From positions 1-64,000 of the forward strand of contig JAAXCX010000007.1 in NCBI GenBank assembly GCA_013036105.1: DNA of 64,000 bases. Direction: 5' to 3'. Below the pieces are notes generated by a model. The model had not been told where the DNA came from, did not search any database, and saw only the letters and a list, made by a program, of their open reading frames with translations. This document shows positions 1 to 31,382 of this stretch, piece after piece. The translations under genes and the position numbers were made by a program. How positions within the stretch are numbered: the first letter of the stretch is position 1; the number at the start of each line of letters is the position of its first letter. This DNA comes from Vulcanimicrobiota bacterium (lineage in GTDB: Bacteria > Vulcanimicrobiota > Vulcanimicrobiia > Vulcanimicrobiales > Vulcanimicrobiaceae).

Positions 1-28
1 TCCGAAAGCGATTGCTCCCGCGCACGCC

Positions 29-46
29 GTTATTCGCGCGAATAAC
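29..46. repeat. 18-bp perfect palindrome
   Basis: The sequence gttattcgcgcgaataac is identical to its reverse complement. It lies downstream of the stop of the first minus-strand gene, in the 69 bp before the window edge, where I see no other gene. It could be an operator or a short hairpin; there is no T-run to suggest a terminator. Function unknown. Confidence 0.5.
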
Positions 47-27858: not shown

Positions 27859-28870
27859 CGAACATGTCCGCGAGTGTGCGGATATTTGCCGTGTCGGACG
27901 TGAACCCGAGACGGGCCAACCCCCACGCGTCCTCGATCGTTCGCAGCAGCGCGTAGTGGTTGTACTCGAGGTGCGAGACGTAGCCGCGCTTCACGATGCC
28001 GCCCACTGCGATAAACGGAATCAGGCCGCCGCCGTACGTGCCGCCTTTTGGCAGGAGAGCCGTGCCGGGCGGAAGCGCCGGCGCATCGCAGCAGCCGTCG
28101 GCGTTGAGCCAGCCGCCTGTGGCTTTGTCGCCGTTGTATGTCGTTTCGTCGGTGAGAATAAAAATGACCGAATGTTTCGTCCAGCCTTTGGCATGCAGCA
28201 GCACGGGCACCCACTGTTTCACGAAGTCGTCTCCGCTGCGGCGAAGGTCGGCGTCCTTTGCGTACGGGCACGGCTCTTCAGGCGTGCCGTGCATGTCTTT
28301 GCAGACGTCGGGCGAGATCCAGATGTACTTTGCGAGCGTGCCGTTCTTGGCATCGGCCGCGAGCTGGTCGAGCGGCACGACCTTCGCCCGGCGCGCCGCG
28401 TTATTACGGATGTCGTCGTAGAGCATAAACGGGTTGTGGCGGATGACGTAGAGCGCGACGTTTTCATTGGCCGGATAGAAATTGTCCATGAATCCTGGCG
28501 AAGGCATGTGTTCCATGTACGCTTTCCACGAAATATGGTGCGCTTCCAACTCGTCGACCACGTTGCGGTGATTGAAACGCTGCGTCGGATCGTCGGAGTT
28601 GCTATACCAGTTGGAACCTGACGTTATCGCGAGGTAGTTCGGCAGACTTGGATGGGTGACGCCGTAAAAGTTGGCGGCATACGCGTACTGATGAGCATAC
28701 TGTGTGATGGTCGGCGCCGCCGGATCGCCGATCACGCTCCGGTCGCTGTGATTCTCGAGCATGATGATGACGACGCGATCAAGTTTGGGCACGGACGCGG
28801 CCCGGACGTGGGGCGATGCCGCGAAAACGGACGTCAAGATCAGAGCAAAAGCGGTGGCCAAACGGCGCAT
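27845..28870 (-). CDS. Secreted phosphoesterase (acid phosphatase/phospholipase C-like)
   Basis: An N-terminal signal peptide (MRRLATAFALILTSVFAASP) leads into a phosphoesterase-family domain of the phospholipase-C/acid-phosphatase superfamily. It carries RVVIIMLENHSDRSV, with the metal-binding Glu-Asn, then THPSLPNYLAITSG and later ILTDETTYNGD and VSHLEYNHYALLRTIEDAWGL. At 341 residues it is closer to the short acid-phosphatase type than to full phospholipase C. It is convergent with the channel gene (14-base overlap) and divergent from the MFS gene. Confidence 0.88.
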   Translation of the reverse strand: MRRLATAFALILTSVFAASPHVRAASVPKLDRVVIIMLENHSDRSVIGDPAAPTITQYAHQYAYAANFYGVTHPSLPNYLAITSGSNWYSNSDDPTQRFNHRNVVDELEAHHISWKAYMEHMPSPGFMDNFYPANENVALYVIRHNPFMLYDDIRNNAARRAKVVPLDQLAADAKNGTLAKYIWISPDVCKDMHGTPEEPCPYAKDADLRRSGDDFVKQWVPVLLHAKGWTKHSVIFILTDETTYNGDKATGGWLNADGCCDAPALPPGTALLPKGGTYGGGLIPFIAVGGIVKRGYVSHLEYNHYALLRTIEDAWGLARLGFTSDTANIRTLADMFANPL

Positions 28871-28935
28871 TAGGGTCCTCCCATGTCGGTCAGCGTTTCT
28901 CCGAGGAGTTTACGCGCTCTTTCCCGATAGGTTCA

Positions 28936-30231
28936 ATGTCCATGACCAAGCGCAGGTATCTCGTTTTTCTGCTCATGTTCCTGAGCGTTTTCATCAACTA
29001 CATGGACCGGGTGAACTACGCGGTCTCGATCCCTGCGATCCGGCACCAATTCGGCTTTAGCTTACAGCAAATCGGCGCGATCTTGTTTGCCTGGAGCATC
29101 GCCTACGCCCTATTCAATTTTCCCGGCGGATGGCTGGCCGATCGATTGGGTCTGCGTTGGTCGCTGCCGCTAATGCTGGGCTGGTGGTCGGCGTTTACCA
29201 TCGCCACGCCCTTCGCCGGAACGCTTGCCGGTTGGTTCGGGATTCGCGCTTTGATGGGCGCGGGCGAGGCCGGAATCTGGCCCGTCAACGCTAAGTGCGC
29301 AAACGCGTGGGCGGGACCCGGCGAACGCTCGACGCTCTATACGTGGGCCGGTTCGGGTCAATTTCTCGGTCCGGCACTCGGCACGTTGTTGGCGGGGTCC
29401 ATCGTCGTTCGATTTGGCTGGCAATGGACGTTCATTCTCTTTGGGCTGGCGGGCTTGCTCATTCTGCCGTTTTGGATCTTCATCGTGCGCGACCGGCCGG
29501 CGCTAGATCCGCGCGTCAACGCAGCCGAGATCGCGCACATCGGAAATCGCGCGCCGCACGATGAGAAAGCCGATTGGCCGGGCATCAGAGATGTCATTTT
29601 TAGCCGCACCGGATTGGGCATGCTGCTCGTCTATATGACGTTCGGGTACATTCTGTTCACGTTCCTGAACTGGGTGCCGAGTTACATGTTTTACACGTTC
29701 CATATGAGCATTTTCAAAAGTTCGGCATGGGCGAGTCTCGGGCTCATGCTGGGCTTCGCCGGATTCATTCTCTCGGGTCCCTTTAACGATCGGCTCGCGG
29801 CACATTTCGACCGGCTCACGGCGCGCCGTATCGGTACGGCGGCGCCGATGTTTTGCTCAATGTTGTGCATGATACTATCGATTTTCAGCGCGCGCGCGGG
29901 GCTGGGCGGATTCACCGCCGTGCTCATCGGTTTCGCGGCGCTCTTAATGAACATGACCGTCGGTGCCTGGGCCGTTAACGTGATCGATATCTCGCCCAAC
30001 CAAGCCTCGACCGGATTCGTCTACGGTGTTTACAACGGTGCGCTGAACATCATGGGAGCGTTCAATTCGCTCATCCTCGCCTGGATCGCGACCCGGTACG
30101 GGTTTCCGGCGGCGTTCGGCAGCGCTATTCTGTTCATGTTGATTTTCATGATCAGCATGCTCTTCATCGTCGACCGGCCGAGCTACGCGAAACTGATCGC
30201 CCGGGCGGAACTCTCGCGCAGCGCGGCGTAG
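28936..30231 (+). CDS. MFS transporter, hexuronate/galactonate (ACS) type
   Basis: A 12-helix major facilitator protein of about 431 residues. The N-terminal YMDRVNYAVSIPAI and LFAWSIAYALFNFPGGWLAD are typical of the anion:cation symporter group that imports sugar acids. Start ATG 28936 (or 28942) is chosen; the longer frame overlaps the divergent phosphoesterase. It lies nine bases before the peroxiredoxin gene on the same strand. The substrate is inferred only from subfamily resemblance. Confidence 0.88.
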   Translation: MSMTKRRYLVFLLMFLSVFINYMDRVNYAVSIPAIRHQFGFSLQQIGAILFAWSIAYALFNFPGGWLADRLGLRWSLPLMLGWWSAFTIATPFAGTLAGWFGIRALMGAGEAGIWPVNAKCANAWAGPGERSTLYTWAGSGQFLGPALGTLLAGSIVVRFGWQWTFILFGLAGLLILPFWIFIVRDRPALDPRVNAAEIAHIGNRAPHDEKADWPGIRDVIFSRTGLGMLLVYMTFGYILFTFLNWVPSYMFYTFHMSIFKSSAWASLGLMLGFAGFILSGPFNDRLAAHFDRLTARRIGTAAPMFCSMLCMILSIFSARAGLGGFTAVLIGFAALLMNMTVGAWAVNVIDISPNQASTGFVYGVYNGALNIMGAFNSLILAWIATRYGFPAAFGSAILFMLIFMISMLFIVDRPSYAKLIARAELSRSAA

Positions 30232-30240
30232 AGGTTATCC

Positions 30241-30663
30241 ATGCTTACTGAAGGCGCCAAAATGCCCGAACTCGACGTCGTTGACGACGAGGGGCGGAAA
30301 TTCAATACGCGCGAGCTGCTCGGCAAGCCGCTCGTCTTATGGTTTTATCCCAAAGACGACACACCGGGTTGAACCAACGAGGGCTCGCAGTTTCGCGACG
30401 CCATCGACCGGTTCAGCGCCAAGGGCGCGCAAATCGTCGGGGTCAGTAAAGACTCCGTCGCCAGTCACCAAAAGTTCAAGGCAAAATACTCTCTACCGTT
30501 TCCGCTCATCGCGGATACGGACGGCAAGATGTACGAGGCCTTCGGAGTAGACGGGCGCACGACGTTTCTTGTCGACCGGGACGGCACGATTCACAAAGTG
30601 TGGCCGAAGGTCAGCGTCGCCGGTCACGCCGAGGACGTTTACAACTCGCTTCCGTCAACGTAG
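30241..30663 (+). CDS. bcp: Probable selenocysteine-containing peroxiredoxin (Bcp/PrxQ type)
   Basis: The frame from ATG 30241 (gaggt site upstream) to TAG 30661-30663 encodes a 140-residue Bcp/PrxQ peroxiredoxin interrupted by one TGA at 30370-30372, codon 44. Before it reads LVLWFYPKDDTPG and after it TNEGSQFRDAID. The TGA therefore occupies exactly the peroxidatic Cys of the family motif TPGCT. The rest is intact (VGVSKDSVASHQKFKAKY, FPLIADTDG, TTFLVDRDG). The protein has no cysteine at all, so without Sec44 it would have no catalytic thiol. A SECIS-like hairpin follows directly. A nonsense mutation or sequencing error is the alternative. TGA serves as a normal stop elsewhere in the window, so it is not recoded genome-wide. 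Confidence 0.82.
30378..30406 (+). promoter_or_regulatory. Candidate bacterial SECIS hairpin
   Basis: Directly after the TGA, the RNA can fold with CGA-GGC-UCGC (30378-30388) pairing to GCGA-c-GCC-UCG (30395-30406). There is one G-A mismatch (30381/30403) and one bulged C (30399). The apical loop is AGUUUC (30389-30394), with a G in its first two bases. Sixteen bases separate the TGA from the loop, nearly the spacing in E. coli fdhF (17, by my count from the remembered sequence). Ten base pairs in GC-rich coding DNA can occur by chance, so this supports but does not prove Sec insertion. Confidence 0.65.
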
Positions 30664-30674
30664 TATTCGTAATT

Positions 30675-30828
30675 GGACCGCGGTACGTGGCGGCCGCGGA
30701 ATGTGCGACATTTTCGAGCTCGACAGGATGTCGAATTCAAAACTTGCTCTCGAAAATGCGCTCAAGCGGCGAAAAAACATGGAGGTTTTTTCGCCAGCGG
30801 TTCCGCGGGCCGCCACGTACCGTGGTCC
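30675..30828. repeat. 154-bp nested palindromic element
   Basis: Outer inverted repeats of 26-27 bp (30675-30700 and 30802-30828) are nearly perfect. They start ggaccgcggtacgtggcggc on the left and the right arm is the complement with two differences. Inside are a 10-bp inverted repeat (cattttcgag at 30709-30718 with ctcgaaaatg at 30749-30758), a hairpin tcgaca-gga-tgtcga (30720-30734), and an 11-bp perfect hairpin ggcgaaaaaac/gttttttcgcc (30768-30795) with a T-run. It fills the gap between the convergent bcp and pyrE genes. It may be a MITE, a structured RNA or an elaborate two-way terminator. Confidence 0.8.
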
Positions 30829-30830
30829 TT

Positions 30831-31382
30831 TTAGTTCTCTGTCTTCGCTTCGCCCCGTGGAAGTGAGAACTGCAGAAGCGAGCGGACCGGTGCGAGGCCG
30901 CGGCTGACGACCGCGCAGCACGTCACGCGCAGCTTCAATTCTTCGAGCCGATCTTTGGCGGCGAGCAGCTCGCGCGCCGTGGTGACCACGTCCTCAAGAA
31001 GCAAGACGCGCTGCCCGGCTTCGTACGCACCTTCAACATACTCGCCGGCGAACGCGCCGTAGCCCTTCGGCTTTTTACGCACGGCGATCATGGGCAGGTT
31101 TGCGAGCTGCGAAACGGCAGTGGCGATCACGACGCCGCCCAGTTCGGTGCCTCCAATGAGATCAGGATTGACCTCGGAGATCACGGGAACGAACAGTCGT
31201 GCGATCCGCCGCAAGACGTGCGGATCCGAAAACAGCCGGAACTTGTCGATGTAATAATCGCTGCGCGTGCCGCCCGCGAGCATGTAATCGCCGCGGGTCA
31301 GCGCGCGTTCAACGATAATTTTGCGCAGCCAGTTGATATCGGGTAGGCGCGCGAGCGATTCGCTGGAGCCTAAATACTCCAC
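30831..31382 (-). CDS. pyrE: Orotate phosphoribosyltransferase
   Basis: This type I phosphoribosyltransferase makes OMP from orotate and PRPP in pyrimidine synthesis. The PRPP loop VLLLEDVVTTARELL and the catalytic-loop lysines AVRKKPKGYG are visible, along with GGTRSDYYIDKFRLFSDP near the N-terminus. At 183 residues it is close to the bacterial size. Its C-terminal end runs up against the palindromic element. The start overlaps the end of the upstream binding-protein gene by 13 bases. Confidence 0.9.
   Translation of the reverse strand: MEYLGSSESLARLPDINWLRKIIVERALTRGDYMLAGGTRSDYYIDKFRLFSDPHVLRRIARLFVPVISEVNPDLIGGTELGGVVIATAVSQLANLPMIAVRKKPKGYGAFAGEYVEGAYEAGQRVLLLEDVVTTARELLAAKDRLEELKLRVTCCAVVSRGLAPVRSLLQFSLPRGEAKTEN

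Follow-up and report, generated by a model that had tools for sequence, protein, structure and literature searches.

The peroxiredoxin gene at positions 30241–30663 of the window, by which we mean the whole 64,000-nucleotide stretch of DNA analyzed here, is very probably a working selenoprotein gene in which the UGA at codon 44 is read as selenocysteine (Sec). Judged from the sequence, Sec44 is apparently the only redox center of a cysteine-free protein. The source is an uncultured soil bacterium of the phylum Eremiobacterota, and the relatives found in named genomes belong to Candidatus Eremiobacterota sampled from soil, peat, and permafrost-type material. The locus comprises the following features.

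28816–30231, + strand: MFS transporter gene, ending 9 nt upstream of the peroxiredoxin start
30241–30663, + strand: predicted Sec-containing Bcp/PrxQ-type peroxiredoxin gene, 140 codons plus TAG (translation, Pfam, AlphaFold)
30340–30342, + strand: codon for Trp34, the residue found with Sec (Cys forms have Tyr/Phe; alignment)
30370–30372, + strand: UGA very probably read as Sec44, peroxidatic position of Px3TxxU (26 TGA and 64 TGC/TGT in Eremiobacterota homologs)
30378–30406, + strand: candidate SECIS hairpin, loop AGUUUC at 30389–30394 (folding and comparison)
30385–30387, + strand: codon 49 (Ser, TCG), the classic resolving-Cys position (CP+5), inside the hairpin stem (sequence, alignment)

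The first-pass annotation described TGA as the only interruption of a Bcp/PrxQ frame, at the peroxidatic position, and the product as free of cysteine. Translation bears out both statements: the frame opens with ATG at 30241, the sole in-frame stop before TAG 30661–30663 is the TGA of codon 44, and the 140-residue product, which begins MLTEGAKMPELDVVDDEGRKFNTRELLGKPLVLWFYPKDDTPGUTNEGSQFRD..., has no Cys. It matches Pfam AhpC-TSA (PF00578) with 116 bits against a cut-off of 26 (E 1.2e-33). AlphaFold predicts a peroxiredoxin fold confidently (mean pLDDT 96.7), and the top PDB matches of the model are all Bcp/PrxQ, the best being a bacterioferritin comigratory protein (TM 0.94). Residues P37, T41, G43, and R106 are invariant in 45 homologs; the Px3Txx(C/U) motif, with Gly before the peroxidatic residue, and the active-site Arg are thus present. 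PrxQ has been described with a CxxxxC motif (PMC6590489), which places the resolving Cys of the 2-Cys form at CP+5. Here that position is Ser49, and the predicted protein is a 1-Cys-like form with Sec. The MFS transporter gene lies upstream of the peroxiredoxin gene in three congeners examined (L050, L051, and L052) and not in L049. Directly 3′ of the gene is a 26-nt inverted repeat (30670–30695 and 30808–30833) whose arms are 88% complementary and separated by 112 nt; it encloses a second AT-rich hairpin, and no other copies of the repeat were found within the window.

A complete set of genes for Sec insertion is present in the genome, a draft of 29 contigs that is 95% complete with 4% contamination. 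The first-pass annotation had proposed a search for selA, selB, selC, and selD, and all four were found above curated cut-offs, with selC, selB, and selA within 12 kb of one contig (C3) and selD on another (C9).

C3:82771–82860: selC, tRNA-Sec with anticodon UCA, 73 bits against a cut-off of 47 (ARAGORN: tRNA-SeC, anticodon tca)
C3:91467–93299: selB, 308 bits against a cut-off of 242, with the C-terminal SelB winged-helix domain
C3:93317–94639: selA, 518 bits against a cut-off of 268
G000:C9:21641–22564: selD (L124), 375 bits against a cut-off of 125

The selD gene itself carries a Sec codon (SCAGUASK), and in genes for FdhA, the formate dehydrogenase alpha subunit, the Sec position is occupied by an in-frame TGA (ARLUHSST). 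SelD has Ser at a site where a second Cys is common. The two FdhA genes, L187 and L189 (G000:C21:16314–17063 and C12:66840–67307), are nearly identical, both with the Sec-position TGA, and one of them may have arisen by partial duplication or be an artifact of the assembly. That UGA is open in several genes could also reflect an altered code, in which TGA is read genome-wide as Trp or another standard residue. We regard this reading as extremely improbable, because TGA is the ordinary stop of 10 of the 38 long ORFs in the window, the open TGAs found sit at known Sec positions (the peroxiredoxin, SelD, and FdhA), the UCA tRNA is tRNA-Sec, and homologs have Cys at codon 44, never Trp.

A pseudogene or a sequencing error, in which TGA would be a nonsense mutation or a TGC called wrongly, also typically looks like a complete gene with one in-frame stop. 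The relatives argue strongly against both. The genus has seven genomes, six of which carry the gene (the remaining one is 56% complete), and TGA stands at codon 44 in all six, that is, in each of the five other members with the gene. Decay of the frame downstream of TGA, which the first-pass annotation had named as evidence against recoding, was looked for among these genes; instead, the region is under strong purifying selection (dN 0.018–0.072, dS 0.49–0.89). A chance origin of the in-frame TGA is excluded by its presence at the same codon in 6/6 genes of the genus together with dN far below dS after it. With the same codon in 26 genes of the phylum and the complete sel machinery in the genome, a pseudogene or error is very unlikely. 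An equally small probability is given to UGA acting as a stop, the product then being a 43-residue peptide, perhaps with a C-terminal product made separately. In its favor, known selenoproteins usually show only partial recoding of UGA. Against it, purifying selection acts on both halves of the gene, the internal TTG ORF (30281–30550) is in another frame, and in the predicted model both halves together make one peroxiredoxin fold with its active site at the UGA.

Across the phylum, we sampled 149 Eremiobacterota genomes and read 90 homologs, those of the genus included, in which codon 44 is either TGA or Cys and nothing else. Sec forms also occur in other families of the class Eremiobacteria (G114, G119, G121, G126, and G127). 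Both Sec and Cys genes adjoin a pyrE-like gene and a gene for an ABC substrate-binding protein; these common neighbors indicate the same locus, and the exchange of Sec and Cys most likely happened in place rather than by import of a paralog. Within the family, selA is found in 20 of the 21 genomes with a Sec form, the exception being 63% complete. The test for co-occurrence of the Sec form and selA was not significant (p = 0.097): selA is retained in most genomes with a Cys form, where it presumably serves other selenoproteins. One genus, g35 (G077–G084), consists of eight genomes without selA placed among Sec users; all six peroxiredoxin genes found in it have Cys, and the Sec trait has apparently been lost. 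The best family tree has eight Sec/Cys changes (6–8 in bootstraps) and the phylum tree seven, but one change is all that the well-supported branches require, and the placement of all Sec forms in one clade is not rejected (p-AU 0.22).

The RNA downstream of UGA44 is predicted to form a hairpin with the geometry that the first-pass annotation had given for it, exactly: 10 bp, a G in the first two loop bases, and 16 nt between UGA and loop. The base pairs fall into three blocks (4+3+3), broken by a bulged C and mismatches, and G is the second base of the loop. This geometry is that of a bacterial SECIS element, and comparative support is moderate. Against synonymous recodings, the hairpin of the window gene has a z of −1.4, with 8% of recodings as good, which is modest when taken alone; those of its congeners reach −2.2 to −3.1. 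The stem GCGUCGC/GCGACGC, the consensus of 18 distinct Sec sequences, has 92% of its cells paired. Three of its pairs show changes on both sides, a level reached by 4 of 500 shuffles, and sliding the partner strand destroys the pairing; compensatory examples are G046 (GCGUCAC/GUGACGC) and G126 (GCAUCGC/GCGAUGC). When all Sec genes are compared with Cys genes without splitting, folding energy is lower in the Sec genes (p = 0.003 for +0..49 and 0.02 for +3..42). The division of hairpins into groups I and II was made after the folds had been seen, and its p of 1e-6 is therefore optimistic. An Rfam scan of 30200–30900 gave neither a SECIS element nor any other informative hit.

Cys genes have much of the apical stem too, since UCGCAGUUYCGCGAY is the usual coding sequence of the conserved SQFRD peptide. 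The SECIS element thus seems, from the sequence comparison, to have been built on a coding hairpin, with its lower stem from codon 54. In the family, 11 of 14 group I Sec genes have Ala (GCN) at that codon, where most Cys genes have Leu. A bulge shifts the lower stem pairs in the window's genus. Seven Sec genes from four genera (group II: G023, G049, G056, G057, and G065–G067) have no 7-bp stem, although they keep TGA and Trp34. Either group II uses another SECIS element or the 7-bp stem is not the full signal. The group II Sec genes (L134, L136, L138, L142, L146, L151, and L163) mostly have common GGC...GCC flanks.

The first-pass annotation was also right that the resolving Cys is missing, but this loss is not a consequence of Sec. 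Within the class Eremiobacteria, every form read, whether Sec or Cys, has a residue other than Cys at CP+5; since this includes the Cys forms, the loss is not tied to Sec. Most Cys outgroups of the phylum have Cys at CP+5, as do 9 of the 10 Sec forms sampled from other phyla.

A different residue does vary with Sec. Among the 90 Eremiobacterota homologs, all 26 Sec forms have Trp at residue 34, and the 64 Cys forms have Tyr (63) or Phe (1). In other phyla, Sec is present in 10 of 16 forms with Trp34 and in none of 34 without it, counts read within strata from a table that was seeded in part by the search pattern WFYPKDDT. Over all forms sampled, no Sec form is without Trp34, and Tyr or Phe stands there in nearly all Cys forms. 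Outside the phylum, then, Sec always comes with Trp34, and Trp34 comes with Cys in six forms. These six Bcp proteins (L098, L103, L106, L110, L114, and L119), of which five have no Cys at CP+5, are possibly former Sec forms or cases of independent use of Trp. Because the tree is poorly resolved, the match between Trp34 and Sec is not proof of repeated coupling. We offer only tentatively, at somewhat less than even confidence, the idea that Sec in Bcp peroxiredoxins is tied to the Trp ten residues before it and that the pair may have switched together several times at one Eremiobacterota locus. The correlation is observed; our reading of it is that Trp34 probably adjusts the active site where Sec is present. 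If the coupling is causal, Trp34 would belong to the active site of a one-Sec peroxiredoxin as an element specific to Sec, for which the Trp of glutathione peroxidase provides a comparison.

Gene content and conservation suggest how the protein would be made and used. When a ribosome reaches UGA44, SelB with Sec-tRNA (anticodon UCA) would insert Sec at the peroxidatic position, SelB probably being recruited by the candidate hairpin that begins 5 nt downstream of the UGA. By analogy with the chemistry of the family, the selenolate would attack peroxide to give a selenenic acid, which an outside thiol would reduce to regenerate the enzyme; with the resolving Cys and any other Cys absent, an internal bond is impossible and an outside thiol is needed. 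GCS2 and BshC were not found in this 95% complete draft, an absence that is provisional. Both are key genes for making glutathione and bacillithiol, and Sec44 is therefore most likely reduced by a thioredoxin-type protein. It is also conceivable, though unlikely, that Sec is inserted and the main role is not that of a peroxidase but of a redox relay or chaperone: the standard 2-Cys PrxQ cycle is lost with the resolving Cys, and chaperone activity has been reported for a Deinococcus PrxQ (PMC6590489). The invariance of Px3Txx(C/U) and Arg106 in the alignment and the retention of a redox residue through Cys/Sec exchange in 90/90 genes favor the peroxidase.

Sec-containing Bcp-type peroxiredoxins (COG1225/Bcp) with the motif TxxU are among the established prokaryotic selenoproteins (PMC9312934, PMC13188914) and were counted in 78 organisms in 2016 (PMC5029168). 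The window protein is a variant of this family and not a new kind: it shares the Bcp type and Sec at the peroxidatic position of Px3TxxU but has no Cys at CP+5, and the proteins of the window's genus have no Cys at all. The first-pass annotation had cited PrxU of Eubacterium acidaminophilum, a peroxiredoxin with Sec (as cited in PMC9312934). PrxU belongs to a different peroxiredoxin branch and is an analog only; against its model (NF040737 peroxi_PrxU, length 233), the Bcp/PrxQ-type window protein scores 43.5 bits, under the curated cut-off of 270, and membership in that family was rejected. The best-scoring NCBIfam models are those of Deinococcus radiodurans PrxQ (NF053650) and E. coli Bcp (NF006960), and assignment to either equivalog was likewise rejected (121.9 bits against a cut-off of 260 and 90.5 against 140). 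A Bcp-type protein of Burkholderia ambifaria (PDB 5enu) has 41% identity, the same fold (TM 0.91), the motif TPGCTTEGLQ, and no Cys at CP+5; it differs in having Cys for Sec, Tyr for Trp34, and a longer loop.

Eremiobacterota are not named in the main texts of PMC9312934, PMC13188914, and PMC5029168, and none of the papers searched links the phylum with selenoproteins. The form without a resolving Cys and its alternation with a Cys form across Eremiobacterota appear to be undescribed so far. The finding adds an uncultured phylum to the users of Sec peroxiredoxins and provides natural Sec/Cys pairs at one locus in which the resolving Cys is already absent. With such pairs, one can ask what Sec gives a peroxiredoxin when an internal bond to a second Cys is impossible, which second-site change (Trp34/Tyr34) goes with Sec, and how a SECIS element fits into the codons for a conserved SQFRD peptide.
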